DNA from: Veillonellaceae bacterium
Lineage (GTDB): Bacteria > Bacillota_C > Negativicutes > UBA1444
Assembly: GCA_012798135.1 (NCBI GenBank)
Contig: JAAZNU010000019.1
Location: forward strand, 1 to 64,000
Direction of reading: 5' to 3'
DNA: 64,000 nt
Positions 13,567 through 38,704 of this stretch are shown here, one piece after another. A program made the translations under genes and the position numbers. The notes under the pieces are model-generated. The model was not told where the DNA came from and searched no databases. It saw only the letters and a program-made list of their open reading frames with translations. Position 1 is the stretch's first letter. Each line of letters opens with the position of its first letter.

Positions 13567-13613
13567 AAAAACAGAACCGATCCGGTAGGAAGGTCCGGAC
13601 GGTTCTGTTTTTT
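13567..13613. terminator. Bidirectional terminator
   Basis: CAGAACCG-TCCGG pairs with CCGGA-CGGTTCTG around a short loop, flanked by A and T runs on both sides. It separates the convergent P1 peptidase and ctp genes. Confidence 0.8.
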
Positions 13614-13629
13614 AGTTCCTGAATACCGC

Positions 13630-14874
13630 TTATTTTTTCATCAAAGATTCTTTCAGAACTTCGACAGCTTTGTCGAGCTGCGGGTCCTGCTTCGATTCTT
13701 TGTCAAAATCCTTGGGGATTTCCACGACCACGTCGGGAACAATTCCCTTGCCATGGATGGAGCGGTCGCTGGGTGTGTGGTATTCGGCGATGGTGATTTT
13801 CAGCGCGGAATCCTTATCGAGGGGAACCAAACGCTGCACGGAGCCCTTGCCGAAAGTTTTAACCCCGACCAGTTTGCCGGCGCCGCGATCCTGGATGGCT
13901 CCGGCGACAATTTCCGAAGCGCTGGCGCTACCGCCGTTGACCAGCACGACCAGCGGCAACGGTGTGGATTTCAGGGAGGACTGGTAGGTTTCACGTCCGC
14001 CGTCCTTACCAATCACCGACACGATCGGGCCTTGTGGAACCAGCAGTTCCGCCACTTTGACGCATTGGTCGATCAACCCGCCGGGATTGTTGCGCAGATC
14101 CAGAACCAGCGAAGTCATTCCCTGCTCTTTCAACTCGTCCAGCTTCTGAACAAAATCTTTGCTGGTGGTTTCGCTGAACATCGAAATTCGGACGTAACCC
14201 ATCTGCTTGTCCAGCATTTTGCCACTGACGGATTTGATCACGATCGTAGCCCGGGTAAGGGGGAACTCCCGCAGCTCTTTACCGGTACGTTCAATGGTCA
14301 GGGTCACTTTACTGCCTTCCGGCCCGCGGATTTTACCCACGGCTTCGTCCAGGGTCATATCTTTGGTATCGGCGGCGTCAATGCGGACGATCTGGTCGCC
14401 GCTCAGAATTCCGGCCGCTTCCGCCGGCGTTCCCTCGATGGGGGCCACGACGGTCAGCTTTTTGTCCTTCACGCCGAGGACAATGCCGACTCCGCCGAAA
14501 GATCCTTTGGTCTCCAACATCAGTTCACTGAACATCTTGGGGTCCATATATACGGAGTAAGGATCGCCGAGCGAATTCACCATTCCTTTGACCGAGCCGG
14601 TCAGCAGGTTGACGCCGTCGACGCTTCCAACGTAGTTCGTTTTGACGGCCTGAACAGCCCGAAACAGTTTCAGCGTAGCGGCCAGTTCTTCCGGACTCAT
14701 TTTGGAAAGATAATAGTTGATTTCCATGGCGGCGATTTTTTCCGTCAGGGACATGGTGGGGGCGGCTTCCTGAGTTTGTTCAGCCCAGCCGGTCACCGGG
14801 ATGATCATCAGCTGAATCATTACCAAGGCGGCAATGACTTGGCAAAGCAGGGCTCTCTTCTTAATCGGTAGCAT
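13630..14874 (-). CDS. S41 family C-terminal processing protease
   Basis: Exported carboxyl-terminal protease, 414 residues. It has a signal peptide (about 1-31, KKRALLCQVIAALVMIQLM), a PDZ domain (about 100-185, GSFGGVGIVLGV and GDQIVRIDAADTKD), and the Ser/Lys core: LDLRNNPGGLIDQ, VNGGSASASEIVAGA with the nucleophilic serine, and KTFGKGSVQ with the general-base lysine. These enzymes trim or degrade envelope proteins and are used in sporulation signalling in spore formers. AGGAGGA lies before the ATG. Single gene. Confidence 0.93.
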   Translation of the reverse strand: MLPIKKRALLCQVIAALVMIQLMIIPVTGWAEQTQEAAPTMSLTEKIAAMEINYYLSKMSPEELAATLKLFRAVQAVKTNYVGSVDGVNLLTGSVKGMVNSLGDPYSVYMDPKMFSELMLETKGSFGGVGIVLGVKDKKLTVVAPIEGTPAEAAGILSGDQIVRIDAADTKDMTLDEAVGKIRGPEGSKVTLTIERTGKELREFPLTRATIVIKSVSGKMLDKQMGYVRISMFSETTSKDFVQKLDELKEQGMTSLVLDLRNNPGGLIDQCVKVAELLVPQGPIVSVIGKDGGRETYQSSLKSTPLPLVVLVNGGSASASEIVAGAIQDRGAGKLVGVKTFGKGSVQRLVPLDKDSALKITIAEYHTPSDRSIHGKGIVPDVVVEIPKDFDKESKQDPQLDKAVEVLKESLMKK

Positions 14875-15109
14875 GCTGTTTCCTCCTATATTGCGCGGTT
14901 GCCGCGAAAATGCAGACAGCCGCAGTGAATCATGCAGTCTATTTCACATTATAACTCATTTTTTCGCCGGTGCGGGGATTTTTTTTGCAGATGCTGGAGA
15001 GTTATTTCGGAGTGTGCTAAGGTATAGATGGATTATTCAGCAGCGCCGGCCCGATGGTCATCATCGGGCGGCGTGAGAAAACGGAAGTTTTGACGAGCGG
15101 GAGGAAGCC

Positions 15110-15319
15110 ATGCCGCATACCCAACGGAAAAATATTGCGCCGGGATTGCCGGTTCAAGTGGTTCAAAAGCAGCATCAGCGTACCGGTCAGCTAACCGAGG
15201 GCGTTGTGAAGGACATCCTGACCTCCAGTCCGGTTCATTCCCGCGGGATCAAAGTGCGTCTGGAATCCGGCGTTGTGGGACGGGTGCAGCGGATTTTGAC
15301 GCCGCCGCAAGGAGGCTGA
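15110..15319 (+). CDS. YwbE family small protein (DUF2196)
   Basis: 69-residue basic protein matching the YwbE family end to end: NIAPGLPVQVVQKQHQRTG, LTEGVVKDILTSSPVHSRGIKV and GVVGRVQRIL. It is thought to be a small nucleic-acid- or ribosome-associated beta-barrel protein, but no function is established. GGGAGGAAG precedes the ATG. The leader carries a good hairpin (CCCGATG/CATCGGG near 15049-15067) without a T run. Nine bases separate it from the regulator gene. Confidence 0.85.
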   Translation: MPHTQRKNIAPGLPVQVVQKQHQRTGQLTEGVVKDILTSSPVHSRGIKVRLESGVVGRVQRILTPPQGG

Positions 15320-15328
15320 AGCCTGGCC

Positions 15329-16195
15329 ATGGGAATGATGATCGGCTTAATCGCCCCCTACGCGGAACTGGCCGGGGTTGCTTCGGAAGTGCGCGACTCA
15401 TTGGGGCTGGATTTTCCAATTGCCGTGGGAATTTTGGAAAGTGCGGTCGGAGTTGCCGAAACTCTGATCCATCAAGGGGCGGAGGTCATTGTCAGCCGCG
15501 GCGGAACGGCGGCTTTGCTGCGCAACGTACTACCCGTGCCGGTTGTCGAAATCAAGGTTACCGGCTATGATGTGATGCGGGCGCTGCATCCCTATATCGG
15601 GCAGGAACGCAAGATTGCCATTGTCGGTTACCAAAACGTGGTGCAAGGCTGCCGGATTTTTGGCGATTTGTTCGGTCTGTCCACCCAAGAATTGACCATT
15701 CCGGCCGATGAGATCAATAAGGACTGGGATGCGGCGCAGCAGGCAGTGCGGCGCCTGGTGGCGGAAAACGGGATCGACGTGGTCATCGGCGACTCCCTGG
15801 TCCGGGGGCGGCTGAAAGTCGAGAACACTGCCATTCAAATGGTTGAATCCGGCAAAGAGGCGATTGCCCAGGCGATCGAAGAGGCGAAACACATTGCCCT
15901 GGTACGGGAAAATGAACGCCGGGCCTATGAACGCCTGCGGACCATCATCCATTCCGTGCATGACGGAGTGGTGGCCACCGACGAGAATGGACGCATTACG
16001 GCGGTGAATCTGGTGGCCGAGGAAATCTTCGGGTTTCGGGAAAAAGAGGTCCTGGGGATGCCCATTGGGCAGGCGATTCCCAATACCCGGATCGATAAGG
16101 TGTTGCAGACCGGTCAGGCCGAACTGGAACAATTGCAGCAAACGCCCAAGGGGTACATTGTCACCAACCGGGTGCCGATTAAACTCGCAGGCTAG
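15329..16195 (+). CDS. PrpR-N/PAS part of a sigma-54 activator, ended by in-frame TAG
   Basis: Sensor half of a PrpR-like enhancer-binding protein. Residues 1-185 form the PrpR_N receptor domain (ESAVGVAETLIHQGAEVIVSRGGTAAL is its core region), and about 195-288 a PAS domain (RTIIHSVHDGVVATDENGRI). The frame stops at TAG after VPIKLAG, yet continues in the same frame with VQGVVATFQEVAKIQ, exactly as the intact paralogue at 36194-38080 continues. The stop aligns with a Glu there, so one G-to-T change (GAG to TAG) explains it. The AAGGAGG site is 13 bases from the ATG, rather far. Whether the protein is lost, made as two pieces, or read through cannot be told from sequence. Confidence 0.75.
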   Translation: MGMMIGLIAPYAELAGVASEVRDSLGLDFPIAVGILESAVGVAETLIHQGAEVIVSRGGTAALLRNVLPVPVVEIKVTGYDVMRALHPYIGQERKIAIVGYQNVVQGCRIFGDLFGLSTQELTIPADEINKDWDAAQQAVRRLVAENGIDVVIGDSLVRGRLKVENTAIQMVESGKEAIAQAIEEAKHIALVRENERRAYERLRTIIHSVHDGVVATDENGRITAVNLVAEEIFGFREKEVLGMPIGQAIPNTRIDKVLQTGQAELEQLQQTPKGYIVTNRVPIKLAG

Positions 16196-16207
16196 GTTCA
16201 GGGCGTT

Positions 16208-17242
<1,035 letters not shown>

Positions 17243-17350: not shown

Positions 17351-17415
17351 TTACTTAAGAAAGGCATTGTTGCTATCAAAAAAGTGTCACAAATATGGCT
17401 GGAGGATGCGGCTAC

Positions 17416-18687
17416 GTGAAAAAACGAATTGAGATTCCCTACGGCAAAGAAATGCTGGCGTTTGAAATCAATGAACAAAATTTGGTGGGTGTATATTCCC
17501 CGAAAAACATTCATGGAGTTTCGGATGTTGCGGCGGCAATTCACCGCGCGTTGGCAACTCCCATTGGGACAAAACCGTTGCGGGAACTGGCCCGGGGTGC
17601 AAAAAAAGTGGTGTTGGTAGCGGATGACAATACCCGGTTGACGCCGGCTGACAAGATCATTCCGATTCTGCTGGACGAGCTGAATGCCGCCGGAATCCGG
17701 GACGAGCAAGTTACGGTGATTATAGCGCTCGGTACCCATCGACCGATGACGCAGGAAGAGATTCTGGACAAATACGGTCCGGAAGTGGTGCGGCGGGTTC
17801 CGGTCAAAAATCATAATTTTCGGGATCCGGACATGATGGTGGATTTGGGGACTACGCCTAACGGTACGCATATCAGAGTGAATCGGGAAGCCTACGAAGC
17901 CGATTTCAAAATTGGCATCGGCAGCATCGTACCCCATTACATTCCGGGATTCGCCGGCGGCGCTAAGATCGTCCAGCCGGGGATTTCCGCCGAGCAGACG
18001 ACGGCGGAAACCCACCTGCTCAGTACCTGTGAACCGCGTTCCTTCCTCGGCATTCGCGACAATCCTGTGCGGATTGAGCTGAATAGTATTGCCCGGGCCG
18101 TCAAGCTGAATACCATCGTCAATACGGTTCTCAATTGCCATGGCGAGGTCGTGGGCGTTTTTTACGGCGATGTGGTGGAAGCGTTCAATGCCGGCGTGGA
18201 ACTTTCCCGGGAGGTTTATTCCGTAGAGATGCCGGAAGTCGCCGACATCGTGGTGGCCAGTTCCTATCCCTGCGACATTGAGTTCTGGCAGGCGCATAAG
18301 GCGCTGTATCCGGCCGATCTGGCCGTGAAGGCAGGTGGCGTGATCGTGCTGGCGACTCCCTGTTGTGAGGGCGTTTCCGTGACCCATGACGATATTCTGG
18401 ACATTACCGGCGAAACGATGCAGGGCTTGAAAGACCGGGTAGCGCGCAAGGATGTTCATGATGAAGTCGCGGCTTCCCTGGCGATCGGCTGGGCGCAGGT
18501 AAAAGAACGGGAAGCGGTCTACATGGTATCGTCGGGCATCACCGATGAAGCGGCGCGCCGATTGGGGTTCACCCCGTTTCCGGCCATTCAGGCGGCGCTG
18601 GACGCTGCGCTGGAACGCACAGGCTCAGCAGCCCGGATCGCGGTTTTGACGCATGCGCCGGATATGCTGCCGGTGATCGGGAAATAG
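17416..18687 (+). CDS. LarA-like nickel-pincer 2-hydroxyacid racemase/epimerase
   Basis: Member of the lactate racemase LarA family (DUF2088), 423 residues, which interconverts 2-hydroxyacid stereoisomers with a nickel pincer nucleotide. Counting from the GTG start, His108 (GTHRP), His174 and Lys184 (VPHYIPGFAGGAK) and His200 (TAETHLL) fall at the same numbers as the catalytic histidines, the cofactor-tethering lysine and the nickel ligand of Lactiplantibacillus LarA. QAHK near 292-295 matches the conserved Gln/Lys pair. The GTG is chosen because GGAGG lies ten bases before it; an ATG upstream precedes that site. First gene of the sigma-54 operon. The substrate is probably not lactate: the context points to a larger hydroxy acid. 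Confidence 0.85.
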   Translation: MKKRIEIPYGKEMLAFEINEQNLVGVYSPKNIHGVSDVAAAIHRALATPIGTKPLRELARGAKKVVLVADDNTRLTPADKIIPILLDELNAAGIRDEQVTVIIALGTHRPMTQEEILDKYGPEVVRRVPVKNHNFRDPDMMVDLGTTPNGTHIRVNREAYEADFKIGIGSIVPHYIPGFAGGAKIVQPGISAEQTTAETHLLSTCEPRSFLGIRDNPVRIELNSIARAVKLNTIVNTVLNCHGEVVGVFYGDVVEAFNAGVELSREVYSVEMPEVADIVVASSYPCDIEFWQAHKALYPADLAVKAGGVIVLATPCCEGVSVTHDDILDITGETMQGLKDRVARKDVHDEVAASLAIGWAQVKEREAVYMVSSGITDEAARRLGFTPFPAIQAALDAALERTGSAARIAVLTHAPDMLPVIGK

Positions 18688-18722
18688 ACACTAATCATTG
18701 CATCAGAGAAGGAGATGTATCC

Positions 18723-19886
18723 ATGCAGTTCAAAGGCTACAGACGGCCCGACGGCAAAGTGGGAATTCGCAATCATGTGCTGGTATTGCCGAGCGTGGTG
18801 TGCGCCAATCGGGCCGCCCGGGGGATTTCACAGGCGGTGGCGGGGACGACCTGGGTCGAGCATCAGCACGGCTGCACGCAGTTGGGGGCGGACGCGGAAC
18901 TGACGGCCCGAGTGCTGGTTGCCCATGGAACCCATCCCAATGTGGCCGGCGTCATCGTGGTCGGACTCGGCTGTGAAACGATCAGGGCTCAGGATATTGC
19001 GGCGGAGATCAAACAGCAGTGCCCGTACAAAAATGTGGCGACCGTCATCATTCAGGATGAAGGCGGTTCGGTGAAAGCCATTGCCACCGGCGCCGGCTTT
19101 GCCCGGAAGTTTGTCGGCGAAGCTTCGGCGATGGAACGGGAGTGGATCGATGCTTCCGAGTTGATATTGGGCACGGAATGCGGCGGCTCGGACGCCTGCT
19201 CCGGTATTTCCGCCAACCCCGCACTGGGCGTCACCAGCGACCTGCTCATCGATGCCGGCGGCAGCGTGATTCTGGCGGAGACGACGGAGATCATCGGCGC
19301 CGAGCATTTGATTGCGGCCCGGGCCATAAATTCGCAAGTGGCCCGCAAGTGTTTCGACGTGATCAACGCTTGCGAGGCATCGGCCAACAAGATGGGCGTC
19401 GACATGCGCGGCGGACAGCCGACTCCCGGCAACATCGCCGGTGGGCTGTCCTCCATTGAGGAAAAGTCGCTGGGCTGCATTTACAAGGCGGGCAGCCGGC
19501 CGTTGCAGGACGTGATCGACTATGCCGCACCGGTCACGCAAAAGGGACTGGTCTGGATGGATACGCCGGGCCAGGACATCGAACAGCTGACCGGCATGGT
19601 AGCCGGTGGCTGCCAGCTGGTGGTGTTCACCACCGGTCGCGGGACTTGCTGCGGTTCACCGATCGCGCCGACGATCAAAGTGTCTACCAATACGGCATTG
19701 TTTGATAAAATGAACGACAACATCGACATCAACGCGGGTACGGTGATCACCGGTGAGGAGAATGTGGAGCAAGTCGGTCGCCGAATCTTCGACGAGATGC
19801 TGGAAGTTGCCTCCGGCAAGCTGGCCAAGGCGGAAATCCTCGGCTTCAACGATTTCGCCATTCGGCGGATCGGGCCGACGATGTAA
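18723..19886 (+). CDS. UxaA family lyase, large subunit (altronate dehydratase/SuyB-like)
   Basis: Large catalytic subunit of a split UxaA-type hydro-lyase or sulfo-lyase, 387 residues. Family marks are FKGYRRPDGKVGIRNHVLVL at the start, HGCTQLG, TECGGSDACSGISANPALG, ETTEIIGAEHLIAARA, PTPGNIAGGLSSIEEKSLG, and TTGRGTCCGSPIAPTIKV. In this family such enzymes dehydrate altronate or galactarate, or remove sulfite from sulfolactate (SuyAB), using an iron-containing centre. AAGGAGATG precedes the ATG. The matching small subunit is next door. The substrate cannot be read from the sequence. Confidence 0.85.
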   Translation: MQFKGYRRPDGKVGIRNHVLVLPSVVCANRAARGISQAVAGTTWVEHQHGCTQLGADAELTARVLVAHGTHPNVAGVIVVGLGCETIRAQDIAAEIKQQCPYKNVATVIIQDEGGSVKAIATGAGFARKFVGEASAMEREWIDASELILGTECGGSDACSGISANPALGVTSDLLIDAGGSVILAETTEIIGAEHLIAARAINSQVARKCFDVINACEASANKMGVDMRGGQPTPGNIAGGLSSIEEKSLGCIYKAGSRPLQDVIDYAAPVTQKGLVWMDTPGQDIEQLTGMVAGGCQLVVFTTGRGTCCGSPIAPTIKVSTNTALFDKMNDNIDINAGTVITGEENVEQVGRRIFDEMLEVASGKLAKAEILGFNDFAIRRIGPTM

Positions 19887-19921
19887 CGGAACCGGATTCA
19901 AAGACAGGGGTGGTTGTAAAA

Positions 19922-20212
19922 ATGGCCAGACTTCAGGCAATCGTAATGAAACCGAAAGACAATGTATGTACCGTGGTCGAGGCGATCCCGGCCGGCGTGG
20001 AAGTGGGAATGGAAGTTGGCGGAGAAGTCGTCCGGATAAAATCCGCGGAAGCGATTCCGGTCGGGCATAAGCTGGCGATCCGCGATATCGGCCAGGGCGA
20101 GATCATCATGAAATACGGCGAGGTAATCGGTCGCGCCACAAAAAATATCAGCGTCGGGCAGCATGTCCATGTGCATAACCTGGAGAGTTGCCGCGGCCGT
20201 GGCGACCGGTAG
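19922..20212 (+). CDS. UxaA family lyase, small SAF-domain subunit (SuyA-like)
   Basis: 96-residue SAF-domain protein matching the N-terminal part of altronate dehydratase and the SuyA subunit: RLQAIVMKPKDNVCTVVEAI, then VRIKSAEAIPVGHKLAI, GEIIMKYGEVIGRA and SVGQHVHVHNLES, whose histidines are a family feature. It would complete the active enzyme with the upstream large subunit. In fused UxaA proteins this domain comes first, whereas here its gene comes second. AGGGGTGG lies before the ATG. Confidence 0.85.
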   Translation: MARLQAIVMKPKDNVCTVVEAIPAGVEVGMEVGGEVVRIKSAEAIPVGHKLAIRDIGQGEIIMKYGEVIGRATKNISVGQHVHVHNLESCRGRGDR

Positions 20213-20238
20213 GAAAAAGGAAGGAGAGGTTTTCTAGC

Positions 20239-21201
20239 ATGGGGAAGCAATGGACTGTATATGTTACCCGGATGATTCCGCAGGAAGTGCTCGACGAACT
20301 GGCGCAACACTGTGAGGTGGAAGTGAATCCGGAAAATCGGCCGCTGACGAAAGCGGAGCTACTGGAAAAAGTGCGGGGGCGGGATGCGGTGCTGACGCAA
20401 GCTGGCGATATCGTCGACGACGCGGTGCTAGCGGCGGCCGGTCCGCAGTGCAAAATTTTCGCCAACTATGCCGTCGGCTACAACAATTTCGATCTGACGG
20501 CGGCGGCGCGCCATAACGTGATGTTGTCGAATACTCCGGACGTGGTGACCGACTCGACCGTGGAGATGGCCTGGACGTTGTTGTTCGCCGTTGCCCGGCG
20601 GCTGATCGAGGCTGATGCTTATGTCCGGGCCGGGAAGTTCAAGGGTCTGGACCCGATGCTGCTTTTGGGCACCGGCCTGACCGGCAAAACCCTTGGCGTG
20701 ATCGGCGCCGGCAGGATCGGCAGCAAGTTTGCCCAGAAAGGCCGGGCGTTCGATATGAAGATCATTTATAATGACGTGGCGCCCAATGCCCGGTTTGAAA
20801 AGGAGACCGGCGCCGCTTATGTGGATAAGGACACCCTGTTGGCGCAGGCTGACTTTTTGTCGCTGCATGTGCCGTTGCTGCCGGCTACTCGACATTTGAT
20901 CGGCGCCCGGGAACTGAAGCTGATGAAAAAAACGGCGATTCTGATCAACTCATCCCGCGGCCCGGTCGTCAACGAAACGGATCTGGTCCAGGCACTGAAG
21001 GACGGCGAAATTCGGGGAGCAGGACTGGATGTATTTGAAAATGAGCCGGCATTGGCGCCGGGGTTGAGTGATCTGCCCAATGTCGTGTTGGCGCCGCACT
21101 TGGGTACGGCGACCCATGAAACCCGCCTGGGAATGGGCCGAGTGGCGCTGACCAACATCCTGGCCGCTTTGCGGGGCGAAACCCCGCCCAACAAATTGTA
21201 A
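20239..21201 (+). CDS. D-isomer-specific 2-hydroxyacid dehydrogenase (GyaR-like)
   Basis: NAD(P)-dependent oxidoreductase, 320 residues, of the glyoxylate/hydroxypyruvate reductase branch. It has the nucleotide-binding fold LGVIGAGRIGSKFAQKGRAF, the catalytic Arg in INSSRGPVVNE, Glu in GLDVFENEP, and the catalytic His in LAPHLGTATHETR. It would oxidise a D-2-hydroxyacid to the 2-keto acid or the reverse. AAGGAGAGG lies nine bases before the ATG; the frame runs further upstream without a start signal. Its place between the lyase and the transporter suggests it handles the stereoisomer made by the LarA-like enzyme. Confidence 0.88.
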   Translation: MGKQWTVYVTRMIPQEVLDELAQHCEVEVNPENRPLTKAELLEKVRGRDAVLTQAGDIVDDAVLAAAGPQCKIFANYAVGYNNFDLTAAARHNVMLSNTPDVVTDSTVEMAWTLLFAVARRLIEADAYVRAGKFKGLDPMLLLGTGLTGKTLGVIGAGRIGSKFAQKGRAFDMKIIYNDVAPNARFEKETGAAYVDKDTLLAQADFLSLHVPLLPATRHLIGARELKLMKKTAILINSSRGPVVNETDLVQALKDGEIRGAGLDVFENEPALAPGLSDLPNVVLAPHLGTATHETRLGMGRVALTNILAALRGETPPNKL

Positions 21202-21292
21202 TCATTTTACGGCTGTAGTCTGGAGAGGAGGGACGCTGGTTCATTCGGTTTTTCACAGGGAACAGCAGAAAAAAAGTGTGAGGGGGAGAATC

Positions 21293-22333
21293 ATGTCAAA
21301 ATTATCAACTCGGATCGTTGCACTGGGAGTCGCCGTTTTCATGATGTCCATGCTGTTAGTCGGCTGCAGCGGCGGTAACAAGAGCGCTGGCGGCGACAAG
21401 ACGGCACCGCAGAAAGTCGTCCTGAAACTGGGCACCGAAACGGCCACGTCCCATCCGGAAACCAAAGGATCGCAGAAACTCGCGGACCTCGTCAAGGAGA
21501 AATCCAAGGGCACTCTGGAAATCCAGGTGTTTGACAGTGCCAAGATCGGCAGTATGAAGGAACGGACCGAAGGCATGCGTCTCGGCACCGTCGACATCTC
21601 CACTTCTTCCGTCGGGTTCCTGGCCTCTTATGTTCCGGTTCTCGGCGTTTTTGACCTTCCCTACATTTATAAGGACAAAGCCCATGAGTTTCGCGTGTTT
21701 GACGGCGAAATCGGCAAAGAGATTGACAAGAAGATGCAGGAAAAAGGCTTCCGCGTCGTTTGCTATTTCGATATGGGATCCCGGCAGATCACCAATAACC
21801 AGAAGCCCATTAACACACTGGCCGACATCAAAGGCATGAAGATCCGCGTGCCGCAGACCGAAGCCAGCATCGAAGGCTTCAAGGCCCTCGGCGCCGCTCC
21901 CACCCCGATGGCTTTCAGCGAAGTGTACATGGCGTTGCAGCAAAAAGTCGTCGATGGCCAGGAAAATCCGTTGTCGGTCATTGTGTCCGCAAAATTCAAC
22001 GAAGTGCAAAAATATCTGTCTTTGACCAACCATCAGTTGTTTATCCAGGTGCTGTCCATCAGCGAAAAAACCTGGAAGAAACTTTCGCCGGAACATCAGA
22101 AAATCCTGATGGAAGCCGCCAAAGAAGCCCAGGCTTATGAACGGGAAATCGCCGCCAAGGAAGAGATTGACCTGATCAAGACCCTCAAGGATAAAGGCAT
22201 GGCGATCAATGAAATCAAGGACGTCGCACCGTTTGCCGAAGCCGCCAAACCGTTGCGGGAGATCTACATCAAGAAGTTGGGCAAAGACGCCCAGGATATG
22301 TTCGGCAAGATCGACTCGGTACGCAACAAATAA
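21293..22333 (+). CDS. TRAP transporter substrate-binding lipoprotein, DctP family
   Basis: Extracytoplasmic solute receptor of a TRAP transporter, 346 residues. The N-terminus is a lipoprotein signal (hydrophobic stretch ending LLVGC, Cys25), so it is anchored to the membrane. Mature motifs are KLGTETATSHPETKG, VDISTSSVGFLASYVP, DIKGMKIRVPQTEA (with the carboxylate-binding Arg of the family), and FSEVYMALQQKVVDGQENP. AGGGGGAG precedes the ATG. With the next two genes it forms a complete importer for the operon's substrate, presumably a carboxylate. Confidence 0.92.
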   Translation: MSKLSTRIVALGVAVFMMSMLLVGCSGGNKSAGGDKTAPQKVVLKLGTETATSHPETKGSQKLADLVKEKSKGTLEIQVFDSAKIGSMKERTEGMRLGTVDISTSSVGFLASYVPVLGVFDLPYIYKDKAHEFRVFDGEIGKEIDKKMQEKGFRVVCYFDMGSRQITNNQKPINTLADIKGMKIRVPQTEASIEGFKALGAAPTPMAFSEVYMALQQKVVDGQENPLSVIVSAKFNEVQKYLSLTNHQLFIQVLSISEKTWKKLSPEHQKILMEAAKEAQAYEREIAAKEEIDLIKTLKDKGMAINEIKDVAPFAEAAKPLREIYIKKLGKDAQDMFGKIDSVRNK

Positions 22334-22436
22334 GACCTGACCCACGGAACTTCTCCGGTGTCGCTGGCCGACGCCGGAGAAGTCGGCCGTCTTTGCCCCG
22401 TGAACGGAAGAAAGTGTTCTGAAGGAGCATGGAGTA

Positions 22437-22877
22437 ATGAAGGTTAACAAAATTCTGGACGGGATATCCGTTCTGTGCATGGTCCTGATTCTGCTTCTCG
22501 TGGTGGCGCAGGTTGCGATGCGCTATATTTTCAATTCACCGTTGACATGGTCGGAAGAGTTGGCAGTGTTCGTAATGATTTGGCTGACCTTTATCGGCTC
22601 GTTGATCTGCATGCGGGACAAGGAACATATCGAAGTGACGATTCTCGTCGATCATTTGCCGCACACGCTCCAGCGGATGGTTGTCGTGTTCAGCCGGCTG
22701 GCTTCGATCTTTTTCTTGTTGATTGTGGCGTATTATGGTTTGGAACTGGTCAGGGAAAACATGACGGTAACTTCGCCGGCCAACAAGCTCAGTATGGGCC
22801 TGGTTTATACGATCATCCCGCTGAGTTCGCTCGGTATGGTATTCTATCTGGTCAAAGCCATTGCGAAGGGGGAATAG
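22437..22877 (+). CDS. TRAP transporter small permease, DctQ family
   Basis: Four-helix small membrane subunit of the TRAP transporter, 146 residues. VAQVAMRYIFNSPLTWSEEL is the classic DctQ signature, followed by WLTFIGSLICMRDKEHIEV. GAAGGAG stands upstream of the ATG. It lies 103 bases after dctP; that gap holds an imperfect hairpin (CTTCTCCGG/CCGGAGAAG) that may tune the high expression of the binding protein over the permease. Confidence 0.9.
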   Translation: MKVNKILDGISVLCMVLILLLVVAQVAMRYIFNSPLTWSEELAVFVMIWLTFIGSLICMRDKEHIEVTILVDHLPHTLQRMVVVFSRLASIFFLLIVAYYGLELVRENMTVTSPANKLSMGLVYTIIPLSSLGMVFYLVKAIAKGE

Positions 22878-22883
22878 AGTCCG

Positions 22884-24170
22884 GTGGAAGTCGTAATCAT
22901 CTTTTTTGTCATGCTGGGGCTGATGCTGCTGCGGGTGCCGGTTGCCTTTTCCATGGGGCTGGCGGCGGTAGTGGCGCTGATCATCGGCGATATCCCGCTT
23001 ACGCTCGTTCCCCAGCGTATGTTCGGGGCGCTGGATTCGTTTCCGCTATTGGCCATTCCGTTGTTTGTATTCGTGGGCGAAGCCATGAACACAGGCGGAA
23101 TCACTCACCGCATCTTCAATTTTGCCCGGGAATATGTCAAGCATATTACCGGCAGTCTGGGCCATGTGAATGTCATTTCCAACATTATCGTCGCCGGCAT
23201 GTCCGGTTCGGCGGTGGCGGACGCTTCCGCCATCGGTGTCGTTGAAATCAAAGCAATGGAAAAAGACGGATTTGACCGAAGCTGGTCTGCCGCACTGACG
23301 GCTGCGTCGTCCACGATCGGTCCGATCATTCCGCCCAGTATTCCATTGGTGGTCTATGCCATCATCACCGAAACTTCCATCGGCCGCCTGTTTTTGGGGG
23401 GAGTGGTTCCCGGCTTTTTGATGGGCGTTTCCCTGATGGTCATGGTATATATTATGTCCAAACAGCGGGGGTACAAAGTAGAACCCAAAGCGACCTGGAG
23501 CGAACGGCTGAATGCCACCTGGAAAGCCATTCCTTCCTTATTGACGCCGATTATCATGTTTTCGGGGATTGTCTTCGGGATCGTCACGCCGACCGAGGGC
23601 GCCGGCATCGCCGCCGCTTACGCGATTTTCCTCGGCTTTGTCATTCACCGGGAAATGACGATCGCGGAACTGTACCACATTTTGCTCCGCACCGTGCATT
23701 GCACGGCGGTCATTCTAATGATCATCTGCAGCGCCTCGGCCATCACCTGGGTCGTCCAGACATCCGGCCTGCCCAATATGGTGGCGGGGTGGCTGCTGTC
23801 GGTCACCGACAGCAAAACGCTGCTGCTGATCATGATCAATGTGGTGCTGCTGATTATGGGCTGCCTTCTGGAAAGCAACTCGATCATCATGATTATGGTA
23901 CCGGTCTTGATGCCGTTAATCAAAGCCTTGCACATCGATCCGGTCCATTTTGGCGTATTTTTCATCCTGAACGTCATGATTGGCCTGATCACGCCACCTG
24001 TCGGCATGTGCCTGTATGTGATCACTAACATCTCCGAAGTCTCGTTTGACCAATTGTCGAAAGCGATTATTCCGTTTTTGATTCCGTTGATAGTTGTACT
24101 GTTCCTGATTACGTTCATTCCGGACTTGGTGATGTTTCTGCCCAACCTGGTGATGGGGCTGGACAAATAA
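22884..24170 (+). CDS. TRAP transporter large permease, DctM family
   Basis: Large membrane subunit, 428 residues with about a dozen hydrophobic segments. Signatures include PLLAIPLFVFVGEAMNTGGI, GSAVADASAIGVVEIKAM, STIGPIIPPSIPLVVYAII, and LGLITPP-type NVMIGLITPPVGMCLYV. Start is GTG, six bases after the DctQ stop. It forms the Na+-driven translocation unit with the small subunit. Confidence 0.92.
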   Translation: MEVVIIFFVMLGLMLLRVPVAFSMGLAAVVALIIGDIPLTLVPQRMFGALDSFPLLAIPLFVFVGEAMNTGGITHRIFNFAREYVKHITGSLGHVNVISNIIVAGMSGSAVADASAIGVVEIKAMEKDGFDRSWSAALTAASSTIGPIIPPSIPLVVYAIITETSIGRLFLGGVVPGFLMGVSLMVMVYIMSKQRGYKVEPKATWSERLNATWKAIPSLLTPIIMFSGIVFGIVTPTEGAGIAAAYAIFLGFVIHREMTIAELYHILLRTVHCTAVILMIICSASAITWVVQTSGLPNMVAGWLLSVTDSKTLLLIMINVVLLIMGCLLESNSIIMIMVPVLMPLIKALHIDPVHFGVFFILNVMIGLITPPVGMCLYVITNISEVSFDQLSKAIIPFLIPLIVVLFLITFIPDLVMFLPNLVMGLDK

Positions 24171-24229
24171 ATCCGGCGTTGCCAAGGTTGCCCGTCAGGA
24201 CGCGAAACAGAGAGAAAGAAGGGGTACTC

Positions 24230-24904
24230 ATGAAAACTGTGGTGGCGATTTATACGGCGATGGCCATTGGTTTGATGAATGACATCAAACAACTGGTGGC
24301 CGAAGAAATTCCGGACTGCCGTCTCATCAATATCGCCGACGACTGTCTGATCCAGGATGTGATTAAGGCTGGTGGGCCGACCGTCGGCGTTACCCGGCGC
24401 TTGCTCGCCTACTATCACGCAGCGGAGGATGCCGGCGCCGATGTGATCCTCAATACTTGCTCCTCCATCGGCGAGGTGGCCGATATCGGCAAAAAATGCG
24501 CCAAAGTCCCTCTCGTGAAAATCGACGACGCCATGGCACTGAAAGGCGTGCAAATGGGCGAGCGGGTCGGTGTCATCGCTACCTTGCCGACCACGCTGGG
24601 GCCGACAGTCCGGTTGGTTCAGCGCAAGGCCGACGAGATCGGCAAGAAAGTGTCGGTAGTCGAGGGATTGGCCAAAGGCGCTTTTGAGGCGTTGATGGCG
24701 GGCAAGGCCGACGAGCATGACGCTTTGATTTTGCAGACCGCCAAAGATATCGCGGGGAAGGTCGATGTGATCGTCCTGGCGCAGGGTTCGATGGCCAAGA
24801 TGCAGGATAAGCTGGCTGATGCGACCGGCAAACCGGTATTGTCCAGCCCGCGGCTGGGCGTGCAGGAAGTACGGGACATCCTTCTTAAGGGGGCGGCGAA
24901 ATGA
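24230..24904 (+). CDS. Aspartate/glutamate racemase family protein
   Basis: 224-residue protein of the Asp/Glu racemase superfamily (two similar half-domains). The two cysteine positions expected of racemases are partly visible: NTCSSIGE keeps the first, while the second site reads LAQGSMAK, with no cysteine. A cofactor-free two-base racemase is therefore doubtful; isomerase or decarboxylase relatives (hydantoin-racemase, arylmalonate-decarboxylase-like) use only one. AAGGGG precedes the ATG. The stop overlaps the next start (ATGA), tying it to the transketolase pair. Role in the pathway unknown. Confidence 0.75.
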   Translation: MKTVVAIYTAMAIGLMNDIKQLVAEEIPDCRLINIADDCLIQDVIKAGGPTVGVTRRLLAYYHAAEDAGADVILNTCSSIGEVADIGKKCAKVPLVKIDDAMALKGVQMGERVGVIATLPTTLGPTVRLVQRKADEIGKKVSVVEGLAKGAFEALMAGKADEHDALILQTAKDIAGKVDVIVLAQGSMAKMQDKLADATGKPVLSSPRLGVQEVRDILLKGAAK

Positions 24905-25731
24905 GCGCTGACGTGGCCTATCTGAACAATCAGGCGCGATTGCTGCGCCGAGACGTGGTCAATACCGTATATCTGGCGAAGGACGGGCATCCGAGTCCGG
25001 CCCTGTCCTGCGCCGATATCGTGGCGGCCCTGTTCTTCAGGGTATTGAATATCGACCCGGCCAATCCCAAATGGGCGCAGCGGGACCGGTTCGTATTGTC
25101 CAAGGGGCATGCCTGCCCCGTGCTGTACGCGGCTCTGGCGCGGCGGGGCTATTTCTCCCGCGACGAACTGCCCGGTCTGCGCAGCCTCGGTTCCAAATTG
25201 CAGGGACACCCCTGCATGCGCAAGACTGTCGGTATTGATATGACCTCCGGTTCACTGGGCAATGGCGTTTCGATCGGCGTCGGCATGGCGATCGCCGGCA
25301 GATACCAGAAACAGGACTATTATACCTATGTCATCACCGGCGACGGCGAACTGGGCGAAGGCATCGTCTGGGAAGCGGCCATGTCCGCCGCCAAGCACAA
25401 ACTGGGCAAGCTGATCGTATTCGTCGACAACAACGGCCTGCAGAGCGGCGGCCGCGTCGAAGAGGTCGGCGGCGTGACGCCGATCCTCGAAAAATGGCAG
25501 GCATTCCGGTGGCATTGCCAGGAGATCGACGGGCACAACATGGAGCAGATTCTGGCCGCCATTGACGCCGCCAAACTGGAAACTGAACGTCCTTCGATGA
25601 TTTTGGCGCATACCGTCAAGGGCAAGGGCATTCCCTACATGGAAAAGGATAATGCCTGGCACAAAAAGGTGCCGACGGAGGCGGAATGGCGCGAGGCCAT
25701 GGAATTGTTAGGGGGGATTGACGGTGAGTAA
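24901..25731 (+). CDS. Transketolase, N-terminal subunit
   Basis: TPP-binding half of a split transketolase, 276 residues. It has GHPSPALSCADIVAAL, LSKGHACPVLYAAL, GHPCMRKTVGIDMTSGSLG, and the TPP/Mg motif GDGELGEG...DNN. Split transketolases move two-carbon ketol units and occur in pentose and in specialised sugar pathways such as apulose phosphate cleavage. The ATG overlaps the upstream stop, and the next gene starts before this one ends. In this operon it would cleave a keto acid or keto sugar derived from the imported substrate; that is inference. Confidence 0.9.
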   Translation: MSADVAYLNNQARLLRRDVVNTVYLAKDGHPSPALSCADIVAALFFRVLNIDPANPKWAQRDRFVLSKGHACPVLYAALARRGYFSRDELPGLRSLGSKLQGHPCMRKTVGIDMTSGSLGNGVSIGVGMAIAGRYQKQDYYTYVITGDGELGEGIVWEAAMSAAKHKLGKLIVFVDNNGLQSGGRVEEVGGVTPILEKWQAFRWHCQEIDGHNMEQILAAIDAAKLETERPSMILAHTVKGKGIPYMEKDNAWHKKVPTEAEWREAMELLGGIDGE

Positions 25732-26680
25732 CTATACGGGTTCCCGGGAAGCGTTCGCGGCAGCGATGATGAAACTAGCGGCGGAAGACAGCCGCTACAT
25801 GATCATATCGCCGGACTCGATGAAAGCCATGCGGGTGGTCGGGTTCGCCGAAAAATATCCGGACCGGCTGATTGAACTGGGCATTGCCGAACAAAACGCC
25901 GTGGCCTGTGCGGCCGGCATGGCCACCTGCGGGCTGGTCCCCTTTGTGGCCACCTATTCCGGCTTCATTACCATGCGGGCCTGCGAACAGGTCCGCACCT
26001 TCGTGGCCTATCCCAAAGTCAATGTCAAACTGGTCGGCGCGAATGGCGGCCTGTTCGGCGGGGAGCGGGAAGGCGTTACGCATCAGTTCTTCGAAGATTT
26101 GGGCATCCTGCGCTGCATTCCCGATATGACGATCGTCGTTCCGTCGGATCCGTCCCAGGTGTTTGCCGCCACCCTGGCTATCGCCAAGTATGAAGGTCCG
26201 GCGTTCCTGCGGGTTTCCAGCGGCCGTGAACATGTGATCTTTGATCACGAGATTCCGTTTGAGCTGGGCAAGGCCAGAACTCTGGCCGACAATGGCAAGG
26301 ATGTTGCGTTGATAGGTTGCGGCTTCATCATGAGCCGGGTGCTGGAAGCGGCGGAAAAACTGCAACAACAGGGAATCAAAGCGACGGTGCTGGAAGTGCA
26401 CACGCTGAAACCGCTCGACTCGGCGGCTATCGCTGCGCTGGCAACGGCAACCGGCGCCGTCGTGACAGTGGAAGACCATAATGTCATTGGCGGTCTGGGC
26501 AGCGCGGTGGCGGAAGTCATCGCCGAACAGGCGCCGGCGGCGCTGGTGCGGGTCGGCTTGCAGGATGTATTCCCCGAATCCGGTCCGGCGGAGGCGCTGT
26601 TGGATTACTACCATATGGGCGTCGACGATATCGTGACCGCCGCCAAGGCCGCGATGGGCAGGCGGGACGCCCGCAAATAA
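25724..26680 (+). CDS. Transketolase, C-terminal subunit
   Basis: Pyrimidine-binding plus C-terminal domains of the split transketolase, 318 residues: RLIELGIAEQNAVACAAGMA (with the catalytic Glu), FSGFITMRACEQ-type SGFITMRACEQVRTF, HQFFEDLGILRCIPDM, and VVTVEDHNVIGGLGSAVAEV. Start is GTG, seven bases after AGGGGGG; a TTG six bases earlier is too close to it. Last gene of the sigma-54 operon; an inverted repeat surrounds its stop codon. Confidence 0.9.
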   Translation: MSNYTGSREAFAAAMMKLAAEDSRYMIISPDSMKAMRVVGFAEKYPDRLIELGIAEQNAVACAAGMATCGLVPFVATYSGFITMRACEQVRTFVAYPKVNVKLVGANGGLFGGEREGVTHQFFEDLGILRCIPDMTIVVPSDPSQVFAATLAIAKYEGPAFLRVSSGREHVIFDHEIPFELGKARTLADNGKDVALIGCGFIMSRVLEAAEKLQQQGIKATVLEVHTLKPLDSAAIAALATATGAVVTVEDHNVIGGLGSAVAEVIAEQAPAALVRVGLQDVFPESGPAEALLDYYHMGVDDIVTAAKAAMGRRDARK

Positions 26681-28781: not shown

Positions 28782-30044
28782 TTACAAGTATTCGCGGGGA
28801 TCGGCGATTGTCCCGGCGATGGCGCTGGCGGCAACCGTCATGGGCGATCCCAGATAGATTTGGGCTTTTTTACTGCCCATGCGGCCGATAAAGTTTCGGT
28901 TTGTCGACGAAATGCAGACTTCGCCATCGGCCAGCAACCCCGAGTGCAAACCTACGCATACCCCGCAGGTCGGGGCCAGGATGACGGCGCCGGCTTCCGC
29001 CAGGGTAGCCAGGAGCCCGTCGCGCGAGGCCTGCATCCAGATATCCTGGGAGGCGGGGGAAACCAGAAGTCTGGTTCCTGGCTTGACTTTACGGCCTTTC
29101 AGAACTTTTGCCGCAGCGGCCAGGTCGTTATAGCGGCCGCCGGTGCAGGACCCGATATAGGCCTGGTCGATCCTGGTTTCGGCAAGCTGCTCGATGGCGG
29201 CGACATTGTCAACCTCATGCGGACAGGAAACCATCGGCGACAGATTGGCGGCGTCAAACGTAAGTGTCTGGCAATAAACGGCGTCCGGGTCGCTTTCCAG
29301 CATGGTATAGGGGGTGGTAACCTTATGAGCGGTCAGGTATTCGACGACTTTTTCATCCGGTTTCATCAGGCCGGCCTTGGCCCCCATTTCGACCGCCATA
29401 TTGGTGATGGCCAGGCGCTCGTCCATGGACAAGCCGCTGATGGTATTTCCCTGATATTCGACGGTTTTATAAGTGGCGCCGGCGTGGCCGATGGCGCCGA
29501 TGGTCTTCAGTGAAATATCCTTGGCCATGACTCCGGGCTTGAGGCTGCCGCTCCAGATTACCTGGATAGTTTCCGGCACTCGCAGCCACGTTTTGCCAGT
29601 GATCAAAACGCCAAGCATTTCTGTCGATCCCACGCCGGTGGCGAAAGCACCCATGGCCCCGCCCATGCAGGTGTGGGAGTCGGTGCCGAGAACTACGGTT
29701 CCCGGCAACACATGGCCTTTTTCCGCCATAATCTGATGGCAGGGGCCAATAAATTCATAGTAGTTGTCCACGCCATATTTTTTGGCCCAGTCACGCGTAA
29801 ACTTGACAATCTCGGCTTGATTAATCGATGCCGGCGGCGTGTAGTGGTCGGAAATGACCACTACTTTTGAAGGATCCCAGATTTGATCCTTGATTTCTTT
29901 CATCCGTTCGGCGATTTCCACCCGGGGGCCGAGAATATCATCCAGCATCGCTTTGTCGATGTTTACCCACAGAATATCGCCGGCGCTGGCTTCAGGAATG
30001 CCGGCGCCTATCGCCAGAATTTTTTCCGACATGGTTTTGCCCAT
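28782..30044 (-). CDS. Aconitase-family hydro-lyase, large subunit (LeuC-like)
   Basis: Catalytic [4Fe-4S] subunit, 420 residues. Cluster cysteines are in GSCTGGRYND and in CGVC; GTDSHTCMGGAMGAFATGVG holds the third region. Other landmarks: VISDHYTPPASINQA at the start and FIGRMGSKKAQIYLGSP near the end. AAGGAGG precedes the ATG by seven bases. Together with the small subunit it would add or remove water from a methyl-branched dicarboxylic acid; see the operon context for the citraconate proposal. LeuC-type, but not necessarily leucine synthesis. Confidence 0.88.
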   Translation of the reverse strand: MGKTMSEKILAIGAGIPEASAGDILWVNIDKAMLDDILGPRVEIAERMKEIKDQIWDPSKVVVISDHYTPPASINQAEIVKFTRDWAKKYGVDNYYEFIGPCHQIMAEKGHVLPGTVVLGTDSHTCMGGAMGAFATGVGSTEMLGVLITGKTWLRVPETIQVIWSGSLKPGVMAKDISLKTIGAIGHAGATYKTVEYQGNTISGLSMDERLAITNMAVEMGAKAGLMKPDEKVVEYLTAHKVTTPYTMLESDPDAVYCQTLTFDAANLSPMVSCPHEVDNVAAIEQLAETRIDQAYIGSCTGGRYNDLAAAAKVLKGRKVKPGTRLLVSPASQDIWMQASRDGLLATLAEAGAVILAPTCGVCVGLHSGLLADGEVCISSTNRNFIGRMGSKKAQIYLGSPMTVAASAIAGTIADPREYL

Positions 30045-30080
30045 ACAAAAACCTCCTTCATGGTAGTGGCTCTGCAAGAA

Positions 30081-31337
30081 TTACAGACCCCAGATACGAT
30101 ATAGTCCCAGACCGGCCAAGGCCGACACGACGGCTACGCCGCAGGCGGCTACGATAAACATCTGAATAAACAGTTTGTTTTGTTGTTCCGGAGTGATATG
30201 GGCATTGGCGGCATAAGCGGCCATGGCCAGGGCACCGCCGGTCGAGGCGGGACTGGTGCCGGCGGTATGGGCCGAATTTGTGATTGCCGAGACCAAGTCC
30301 AGTGCGGATACGTTGCCAACCACCGACTGCAAGGAAGAGACCGTCGGAATCAAGGTCGGCATTACGACGCCGGAAGTGCTGGAGAACCAGGACATGATTC
30401 CCGCGGTAAGGCCAATGATAAACGAGGCGGTGCTTTCGGTCATCAAGGTGGACAGGAACTTCGCCAACAATTCGATTCCTTTGAGTTTAATCGCCAGATT
30501 CATCAATACGCCGACACCACAGACCAAAATCAGGGTGCCCCAGGGGATACAAGAAATCGATTTTCGTTCGTCTGCAACTTTCAATAAAAGAAGAATCGCG
30601 CCGATCAAAAAGGCGATCAGACCAACATTGGCCTTGGTGATGAGAACAATCAGGACCATGGCGATAACCCCGACCATGGTGATCCACTGGTCGCGGTTAA
30701 ACGCGGGCAGATCCGATTGGCGCAGGATCTTTTGCGTTTTCAGTTTATGACCGCCCAACGCGAGGTAGAGGATAATGGCCCAGATGGTTTCCGCCATCAG
30801 CGAATTATAGAAATAAGGCATGTCGATTCCTTTGATACCCTGCGCTGCCGACAGCGTGATCCCGATAATACCGGTCGGTGCAATCGGCGAAATGCCGCCG
30901 GCCGCCGAACCTAAGACCGTAATTGGCGCCAATAGCAATGGCGATATGCCGGTTTCGGCGGCCAACGCCATCGAAATTGGCATAGTGAGCGCCATGACCG
31001 GAATCGTACCCGGTCCGATGGCTGCCAGGAAAGTCGTCATCAAGTAGATGGCGATGGGAATCATTTTTGTTTGTTTGCCGGACAGGGCTACGACTTTGCG
31101 GGCGAATAACTCCAATGTTCCGTTGCTTTGCGCAATGCTGAACAAAAATGTAACGCCCAGAAGCATGAGAAAGAGGCTGGTACTCCAGCCGGCCATGACA
31201 TTGGCCTCCTTGAACCCGGCCAAGCGTCCCAGAACCACCGCAAAGGCCATGCAAAGCAGGCCGACGTTCAACTTGCGGAAGAAACCGAGCGCAATAGCGA
31301 CAACCAACATGATTAATGAAATAAGTCCCCAGTTCAT
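30081..31337 (-). CDS. MatC-type dicarboxylate carrier (SLC13-like permease)
   Basis: Polytopic membrane protein, 418 residues with about twelve helices. The N-terminus (MNWGLISLIMLVVAIALGFF, LNVGLLCMAFAVVLG) has the MatC_N pattern of malonate/dicarboxylate carriers, and the second half has NSAHTAGTSPASTGGALA and GIMSWFSSTSGVVMP. It would import the dicarboxylic acid used by the neighbouring enzymes. The gene lies 36 bases upstream of the leuC-like gene and probably shares its transcript; an inverted repeat stands in its own leader. Confidence 0.85.
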   Translation of the reverse strand: MNWGLISLIMLVVAIALGFFRKLNVGLLCMAFAVVLGRLAGFKEANVMAGWSTSLFLMLLGVTFLFSIAQSNGTLELFARKVVALSGKQTKMIPIAIYLMTTFLAAIGPGTIPVMALTMPISMALAAETGISPLLLAPITVLGSAAGGISPIAPTGIIGITLSAAQGIKGIDMPYFYNSLMAETIWAIILYLALGGHKLKTQKILRQSDLPAFNRDQWITMVGVIAMVLIVLITKANVGLIAFLIGAILLLLKVADERKSISCIPWGTLILVCGVGVLMNLAIKLKGIELLAKFLSTLMTESTASFIIGLTAGIMSWFSSTSGVVMPTLIPTVSSLQSVVGNVSALDLVSAITNSAHTAGTSPASTGGALAMAAYAANAHITPEQQNKLFIQMFIVAACGVAVVSALAGLGLYRIWGL

Positions 31338-34835: not shown

Positions 34836-34836
34836 G

Positions 34837-36033: not shown

Positions 36034-36079
36034 TTGTGTTCCTCCTTTAAGCATTCCGGTAATATGTTGAAATATATTA

Positions 36080-36095
36080 TGCAATTTTCATGCCA
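36080..36095 (-). promoter_or_regulatory. Sigma-54 (-24/-12) promoter of the CoA-transferase operon
   Basis: On the minus strand TGGCATG-N4-TTGCA matches the consensus with exact GG-GC spacing, preceded by TTT. The RNA would start near 36069, some 35 bases before the CoA-transferase gene. The divergent neighbour is a sigma-54 activator. Confidence 0.85.
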
Positions 36096-36193
36096 AAAAT
36101 CGGTGAAAAAACTTGGCGTTCCGGGCGGGAATGGTTACAATCAAAGGTGGACCGGTATTCTGAAATGAAATGGAAGATGAGGATGCGGAAAAA

Positions 36194-38080: not shown

Positions 38081-38091
38081 CCAAGAAGAAC

Positions 38092-38133
38092 CGTCCTGTT
38101 TTTGGGACGAATCGTATCAAAAACGGGACGAAT
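38092..38133 (+). promoter_or_regulatory. Probable enhancer sites for the sigma-54 activator
   Basis: GGGACGAAT occurs at 38104-38112 and again at 38125-38133, 21 bases apart, which is two helical turns. An inverted half-site CGTCC (38092-38096) faces the first copy. They lie 40 to 80 bases before the predicted start of the dctQM transcript, just after the activator gene. Confidence 0.55.
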
Positions 38134-38144
38134 GTATGATCCGC

Positions 38145-38160
38145 CGGCAGGGAAAATGCA
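38145..38160 (+). promoter_or_regulatory. Sigma-54 (-24/-12) promoter of the dctQM pair
   Basis: CGGCAGG-N4-ATGCA keeps the essential GG and GC at exact spacing but differs from the consensus at the first base of each box and at one inner base. Predicted start near 38172. The repeats upstream and the position behind a sigma-54 activator support it. Confidence 0.6.
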
Positions 38161-38214
38161 ATCGTTGATGAACTATTACACTATCTTGCAAACCGGACGA
38201 AGGGGGGAGTTTTT

Positions 38215-38703: not shown

Positions 38704-38704
38704 G

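Follow-up and report, generated by a model that had tools for sequence, protein, structure and literature searches.

What substrate would call for a tripartite ATP-independent periplasmic (TRAP) importer, a LarA-family epimerase, a split UxaA-type dehydratase, a 2-hydroxyacid dehydrogenase, a racemase-fold protein and a split transketolase (TK), all in a single operon? This gene set lies at positions 17395-26680 of a 64,000-nucleotide stretch from a Veillonellaceae bacterium (contig JAAZNU010000019.1, positions 1 to 64,000, forward strand; hereafter the window). A preliminary description made from the sequence alone had proposed an undescribed hydroxy-acid pathway in which a polyhydroxy acid is epimerised, dehydrated or desulfonated and finally split by TK. 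The hydroxy-acid reading is borne out, the locus being a hydroxy-acid/sugar-acid operon, and the genomic contexts of its relatives suggest sugar acids with four carbons or with a branched chain of five, classes not named in that description. We tentatively propose that the operon serves the uptake and fermentation of a small aldonic acid, a tetronate (erythronate or threonate) being the likeliest, with 3-oxo-tetronate as the TK donor, a reading to which we give somewhat less than an even chance.

The stress laid earlier on TK was well placed, as residue comparison makes the enzyme look central and unlike a pentose-phosphate TK. It is encoded by two adjacent genes, with the thiamine diphosphate (ThDP) domain on one chain and the pyrimidine and C-terminal domains on the other (Pfam):

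24901..25731, + strand: split TK, N (ThDP-binding) subunit, TKN (Transketolase_N, 212 bits)
25718..26680, + strand: split TK, pyrimidine/C-terminal subunit, TKC (Transket_pyr 109 bits, Transketolase_C 111 bits)

The nearest solved chain to the N half is 6yak, the N component of a split TK (284 bits). Aligned to Escherichia coli TktA, whose numbering is used here, the window enzyme conserves the ThDP and catalytic residues H26, H66, H100, H261, E411 and H473 and the metal ligands D155/N185. According to passages of PMC11659671, the canonical phosphate-orienting motif is RSFHR (positions 358, 385, 434, 461 and 520) and that of a split sulfofructose TK is RAFDR. The window enzyme matches neither the pentose-phosphate nor the SqwGH motif, reading R358, A385, Y434, N461 and S520, with E469 and one inserted Arg; S385, H461, D469 and R520 of TktA are thus replaced by A, N, E (with the inserted Arg) and S. 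Laboratory TK variants selected for non-phosphorylated acceptors were also altered at 385, 469 and 520, as part of PMC5073344 reports. From these residues we infer that the natural donor is probably unphosphorylated and carboxylate-bearing.

The same pattern recurs throughout a clade. Among the best 120 of 7297 TKC homologues, N461, E469 and S or N at 520 are found in 120/120, as are Y434 and the Arg beside E469, while position 385 varies between A (75), V (44) and I (1), giving the consensus R[A/V]YN[S/N]. Over 134 clade rows, position 434 is invariably Y; position 385 is mostly A (88 rows), otherwise V (44), I (1) or S (1); and position 520 is divided between S (106) and N (28). The insertion ahead of E469 is Arg in 131 rows and Lys in the other 3. 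A 59-row tree places the N461 type on a single branch (38 rows, support 100/100), within which the window-type TKs (6 rows) form a branch of their own (100/100). The next 20 split-TK loci returned for Negativicutes (L172-L191) comprise 15 that keep H461/D469/R520, four of the N461 type and one that differs. Searching plasmids with TKC gave 358 records, all below 60% identity, and the one opened, from Shinella, shows a different TK context. By its sequence and its gene neighbours (below), the clade fits the cutting of unphosphorylated 3-oxo acids. That an ordinary pentose-phosphate TK has merely been placed in a sugar-acid operon to feed triose or pentose phosphates would agree with the retention of R358 and of every ThDP and catalytic residue, but we consider it very unlikely, as H461, D469 and R520 are substituted in 134/134 clade rows and S385 in 133/134.

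Relatives of this TK in other genomes point to its chemistry. The TK C half was searched against 380 Negativicutes genomes, of which 204 matched at E 1e-60; opened were the ten top-ranking places (L192-L201), the window operon itself excepted, and three of the four lower-identity N461-type loci (L211-L213; G160 left out). Gene counts were made on all open reading frames of each locus, and neighbours in fetched loci were often judged by eye, those relied on being confirmed by Pfam or phmmer unless marked "by eye". TKN and TKC adjoin a gene for PGDH_C (PF16896), a D-apionate-oxidoisomerase-like protein, in 13/13 of these loci (10/10 and 3/3, respectively). A 2-hydroxyacid dehydrogenase is present in 9/13, a glycerate kinase in 6/13 (PF02595 type in L197, L200 and L211; MOFRL type in L198, L199 and L212) and TRAP genes in 5/13. 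The residue comparison covered 9/10 of the best PGDH_C-context loci, the TK of L196 not being among its rows. L212 (6598-15896) is compact, running FadR-TKN-TKC-PGDH_C-DctPQM-dehydrogenase-glycerate 2-kinase, and offers the cleanest test case for a TK route of apionate. L213 (5039-9656) carries two split-TK pairs in tandem, the second of the N461 type with PGDH_C next to it.

No NCBIfam model matched the PGDH_C protein at E 1e-20. A relative at 40% identity on a plasmid of Rhizobium sp. K102 has as neighbours oiaX and the genes for a four-carbon acid sugar kinase and a Gfo/Idh/MocA oxidoreductase. This neighbourhood is, judging by its genes, an apionate cluster, and we take D-apionate oxidoisomerase to be the activity matching the PGDH_C family in oiaX-type clusters. 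Of the other plasmid relatives opened, the one from Salipiger has a four-carbon acid sugar kinase nearby and those from Erwinia and Pantoea have dihydroxyacetone-kinase/TIM-barrel sets; none of the four plasmid loci opened, out of 251 matching records, contains a split TK. D-apionate oxidoisomerase figures in the enzyme list of D-apionate catabolism given in part of PMC11747546.

The window also covers a site, about 11 kb downstream of the studied operon, at which the nearest relative's genome (G001) carries such a sister operon. Positions 34668-43719 are syntenic with L193 of that genome, with ~83% identity in the flanks. Compared with L193, the window is without ~5 kb (FadR, TKN, TKC, PGDH_C and DctP) and a 2-hydroxyacid dehydrogenase gene, at 38059-38227 and 39985-40068; what remains is a sigma-54 regulator (36170-38080) and DctQ/DctM (38245-39979), with no DctP adjoining. 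From this comparison, the window genome appears either to have lost a PGDH_C-type TK operon at this site or never to have gained one there.

How, then, do the other genes of the window operon relate to a TK of this kind? All of the families recognised previously are present in one compact ten-gene run on one strand (Pfam and NCBIfam scans), with neighbours overlapping or at most ~0.1 kb apart. The earlier span of 17416 to 26680 starts 21 bases inside the LarA open reading frame, and the upstream regulator is to be considered along with the run:

15329..17242, + strand: sigma-54-dependent PrpR_N/PAS-type regulator (Pfam PrpR_N 138 bits, Sigma54_activat 226 bits; two pieces scanned apart)
17395..18687, + strand: LarA-family (nickel-pincer nucleotide) 2-hydroxyacid epimerase/racemase, specificity group unassigned (Lar_N 220 bits)
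18723..19886, + strand: UxaA/GarD/SuyB-type dehydratase large subunit (GD_AH_C 334 bits, GD_AH_second 132 bits)
19910..20212, + strand: SAF-domain small subunit of the dehydratase (SAF PF08666, 32 bits, cut-off 21)
20188..21201, + strand: D-2-hydroxyacid dehydrogenase, glyoxylate/hydroxypyruvate-reductase-like (2-Hacid_dh_C 199 bits)
21278..22333, + strand: TRAP solute-binding protein DctP, lipoprotein-like N-terminus (307 bits)
22437..22877, + strand: TRAP small membrane subunit DctQ (PF04290, 114 bits)
22884..24170, + strand: TRAP large membrane subunit DctM (PF06808, 414 bits)
24179..24904, + strand: one-cysteine Asp/Glu-racemase-fold protein, hereafter Race (PF01177, 71 bits)

Translation likely starts at an internal ATG near 20239 for the dehydrogenase and at about 24230 for Race.

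LarA retains the catalytic H115 and H181 of its superfamily and the nickel-pincer nucleotide-binding R81, K191 and H207 (motif and HMMER alignment to Mar2). Its relatives sit among four-carbon sugar-acid genes, with PdxA2 within 4 kb in 17/21 opened loci and a DUF1537 (four-carbon-acid-sugar kinase) gene in 13/21; the 21 loci come from 24 places, G003 and G061 were not opened wide, and L117 is a 3.1-kb contig only. A free-standing LarA-UxaA-SAF trio occurs in another Negativicute (L156, 8852-11640), with no TK, kinase or PdxA2 match within 4 kb. Were LarA a malate/tartrate racemase and UxaA a tartrate dehydratase, the operon would serve malate or tartrate; the top PDB matches of LarA are indeed malate racemases, as is its best NCBIfam model (LarAH6), and Sporomusa LarAH62 acts on both acids according to part of PMC11770544. 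However, the LarAH6 score of 354 bits is under the cut-off of 500 (302 against 462 for LarAH5), L362/A363 stand where the published malate-racemase signature has H/Q and K (the W358/T359 positions), and TK would be left without a role. We rejected the malate/tartrate racemase identity on the L-A reading of the signature, and a malate/tartrate pathway is highly improbable.

Race keeps one of the two catalytic cysteines of Asp/Glu racemases, with Cys at the first site and an AQxSM motif at the second, and for want of the second Cys its identity as a two-cysteine racemase was rejected. The preliminary count of two or three stereochemistry-changing enzymes was too strong for the same reason. Nor does Race resemble arylmalonate decarboxylase, for which a passage of PMC4996985 gives Gly at the first site and Cys at the second; Race has the reverse, the match of sites being inferred from motif order. 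A fold search with the Race model gave, among the matches listed, mostly racemases and maleate isomerases. Relatives of Race lie beside DUF1537 kinases in L108, L109, L214 and L215 and beside split TKs in L104-L107; these Race-linked TKs retain H461/D469/R520 in 3/4, and the fourth has Y461. Downstream of Race-TKN-TKC in L106 there is an acetolactate-synthase-like ThDP enzyme (13526-15301), with an HMGL-like gene (PF00682) between and an aldehyde-dehydrogenase-like gene (by eye) beyond. A further group of one-cysteine relatives (L083, L085, L091, L092, L093, L095, L096, L097, L098 and L102) neighbours a conserved SBF-family membrane protein of ~323 amino acids (PF01758 in L096; the rest by eye) and a small protein.

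The UxaA/SAF pair is the hardest to place. Relatives of UxaA are abundant and well conserved: at least 8000 homologues were scored, the best 120 at 77-95% identity, and a plasmid search returned 318 records. The protein belongs to the Pfam superfamily, and its score against the NCBIfam GarD equivalog is 258 bits, under the cut-off of 730.85. A TK donor needs a CH2OH-CO-CHOH unit, and UxaA-type dehydration yields a 2-keto-3-deoxy acid without one. The earlier order of epimerisation, dehydration and TK cleavage is chemically doubtful because such a product lacks the donor ketol, and we rejected a linear dehydration-then-TK route on this ground. The sulfo-lyase option also finds no backing in the operon. 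If LarA were a sulfolactate racemase and UxaA/SAF a sulfo-lyase, the pathway would be of the SuyAB type, SuyAB being a split UxaA-family enzyme as well; but a sulfite-handling gene is absent among the ten genes (Pfam scans, with no SuyB sequence compared), TK would be superfluous, and the relatives of LarA and Race are tied to sugar acids, so that we regard this as extremely improbable.

Alternatively, the operon may hold two modules, LarA-UxaA-SAF making a 2-keto-3-deoxy acid from a C4-C6 aldonic acid by epimerisation and dehydration, and Race, TK and dehydrogenase serving a different compound. L156 has the first module without TK and L104-L106 have Race-TK without LarA or UxaA matches, as this would predict; yet a gapless run with a single importer favours one substrate or close stereoisomers, and we consider the division rather unlikely.

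Among the 22 NCBIfam models listed for the dehydrogenase, the best is glyoxylate reductase (PRK13243), at 347 bits against an equivalog cut-off of 455. Its closest counterpart in fetched loci of other operons belongs to the PGDH_C-type TK operon of G001 (L193, 456 bits). Both observations speak for the tetronate model. In a rival scheme, TK would cut a donor like 3-oxo-isoapionate, the dehydrogenase would reduce the resulting hydroxypyruvate to D-glycerate, and LarA and UxaA/SAF would racemise and dehydrate the latter to pyruvate, replacing the glycerate kinase of the sister loci. Nearly all operon genes would receive a role. Dehydrogenase and glycerate kinase do occur near the same TK clade at the frequencies given above, and in the window operon, which is kinase-less, LarA-UxaA-SAF adjoin the dehydrogenase. 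We know of no UxaA-family glycerate dehydratase, however, and close UxaA relatives are in mixed contexts, beside DUF1537 (L002, L004) and KdgT (L002, L005), others by eye. An apionate oxidoisomerase is missing from the operon, and although some LarA enzymes racemise glycerate (reported in part of PMC11770544), the window LarA is without the residues listed for lactate/glycerate racemases. The hydroxypyruvate scheme is, in our judgement, unlikely.

Arg169 of DctP is conserved, which we take to be the Arg that usually contacts the carboxylate in TRAP binders, and structure matches liken the protein to many sugar-acid, sialic-acid and other binders.

Under the tetronate scenario that we favour, the acid would enter through TRAP and LarA would epimerise C2, making either C2 epimer usable. 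Oxidation to 2-oxo-tetronate would fall to the D-2-hydroxyacid dehydrogenase or to an enzyme from outside the operon, and a ketol shift, plausibly by Race, would give 3-oxo-tetronate (CH2OH-CO-CHOH-COOH). From this unphosphorylated donor TK would transfer CH2OH-CO to an aldose (phosphate), yielding a ketose (phosphate) and glyoxylate, and the dehydrogenase would turn glyoxylate into glycolate, which would close the redox balance with no kinase step. The UxaA/SAF pair would stand apart as a dehydration branch in parallel, one that the model does not explain. In the sister loci, an apionate-oxidoisomerase-like enzyme would convert D-apionate to 3-oxo-isoapionate (CH2OH-CO-C(OH)(CH2OH)-COOH) and the TK would take CH2OH-CO off it to leave hydroxypyruvate, which a reductase would convert to glycerate and glycerate kinase to phosphoglycerate, the carbon route being redox neutral. 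3-Oxo-tetronate and 3-oxo-isoapionate share the head CH2OH-CO-C(OH)-COOH, and from the former this type of TK would leave glyoxylate. More broadly, and more tentatively still, there may be a kinase-free, redox-neutral TK pathway for C4 and branched C5 sugar acids, in which R[A/V]YN[S/N] split TKs cut unphosphorylated 3-oxo-aldonates and leave glyoxylate or hydroxypyruvate for a 2-hydroxyacid reductase, the window variant being fed by LarA and a one-cysteine Race isomerase instead of apionate oxidoisomerase.

Several observations weigh against this scheme. In the TK branch UxaA/SAF finds no use, and it is because its product would be no TK donor that we hold the tetronate model tentatively and keep its rivals open. 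PGDH_C, which defines the sister loci, is absent from the window operon (Pfam scans of the ten genes). Within the operon there is no oxidoreductase besides the 2-hydroxyacid dehydrogenase, so this enzyme would have to do double duty or be helped by another gene. As R358 is kept, and an inserted Arg is conserved, the TK acceptor may be phosphorylated. PdxA2 is missing from 4/21 LarA loci and a DUF1537 call from 8/21. The window LarA has Y at the F175-equivalent position, where 19/19 listed orthologues have H (the UxaA-linked L156, apart from these, has I, and the L121 LarA was left out of the comparison by a motif filter), and it differs from other LarAs near this position too, so its substrate may also differ. 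LarC gave no match in G001 and was present in the four other genomes of the same search; G001 is probably an incomplete metagenome-assembled genome. Finally, a TIM-barrel (AP_endonuc_2) isomerase-type gene accompanies Race in L107, L214 and L215 (by eye), and L108 pairs Race with a three-step-type tetronate set (3-hydroxyisobutyrate-dehydrogenase family, DUF1537 and F_bP_aldolase). Race as an obligatory replacement of OtnI was rejected on these grounds, and Race need not be an isomerase; it may equally be a decarboxylase or an epimerase, and the ten relatives of the further group named above adjoin an SBF-family transporter instead.

The closest relative of the window, L001 (Negativicutes UBA1444), shares 88.9% DNA identity over 18.6 kb, with UxaA 98% identical, and has the operon genes in the same order, which argues that their juxtaposition is not by chance; there the TK N half is broken into two reading frames and the contig stops within the C half. 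The neighbourhood search suggested in the preliminary description found the full set in L001 alone among 80 loci. Homologues of UxaA and of the window-type TK fell on contigs of equal size five times (73815, 71533, 70031, 422329 and 101795 bp), which suggests, short of proof, that the ten genes move as one unit. In the window an in-frame stop divides the regulator frame into the pieces 15329-16195 and 16208-17242, and in L001 the frame is intact; the operon may be deregulated in the window genome, or the regulator gene inactive. A tyrosyl-tRNA synthetase gene follows the operon at 26830, and just past it an aconitase-family protein and a MatC/CitMHS dicarboxylate carrier are encoded in tandem (28782-31337, - strand), a possible separate acid-utilisation unit.

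The operon hints at an unreported fermentation of plant-derived four- or five-carbon sugar acids, the carbon sources at stake being apiose, from the plant cell wall, and threonate, from ascorbate breakdown. If the proposal is true, TK chemistry would gain a new reaction type, the cutting of 3-oxo acids that bear no phosphate; a conserved subfamily currently labelled just 'transketolase' would be explained; and substrates could be predicted for those LarA, PF01177 and split UxaA proteins whose function is unknown. The earlier remark that no pathway with this gene set was known to its author agrees with the open-licence PMC literature, where no description was found among the matches listed.

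Known systems each share a part of the set. UxaA/GarD and 2-keto-3-deoxygluconate (KDG) pathways have a UxaA-type large subunit and a SAF subunit in common with it, whereas their aldolase, KDG kinase, uronate isomerase and uronate reductase are absent among the ten genes. The L-threonate, D-threonate and D-erythronate pathways (LtnD-OtnI-OtnK-OtnC; DtnK-PdxA2; the three-step 2-OtnK/2-OtnC) also concern four-carbon acid sugars, with TRAP or GntP uptake at some loci, and relatives of LarA and Race occur in such operons. They differ in their DUF1537 kinase, PdxA2 and OtnC, all absent from 17395-26680, where TK stands instead, so that no ATP step is evident in the window operon. Apiose and apionate catabolism is known to use ApnO, OiaC, OiaK-OiaX and OiaK-OiaT, with the apulose-4-phosphate transketolase AptAB in the apulose branch; the apionate branches employ a kinase and a RuBisCO-like protein, or a decarboxylase, and the AptAB substrate is a phosphorylated ketose. 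The likeness lies in the small branched aldonic acid and in the ApnO-like PGDH_C of the TK-clade sister loci, while the window operon is without ApnO, kinase or RuBisCO-like protein. The four-step L-threonate route forms the same kind of 3-oxo acid as proposed here and then phosphorylates it (part of PMC12540250). The SqwGH sulfo-TK, as described in passages of PMC11659671 and PMC9594981, is a split TK that acts on an unphosphorylated sulfo-sugar with the altered motif RAFDR, and the latter source reports that in clostridia the by-product aldehyde of its pathway is reduced as an electron sink. Its motif differs from R[A/V]YN[S/N], as does its substrate class, and sulfoquinovose isomerase, SqwI and sulfonate genes are absent among the ten genes of the window; by analogy, though, SqwGH provides a precedent, being a split TK whose phosphate motif is changed and whose substrate is an anionic ketose without phosphate.

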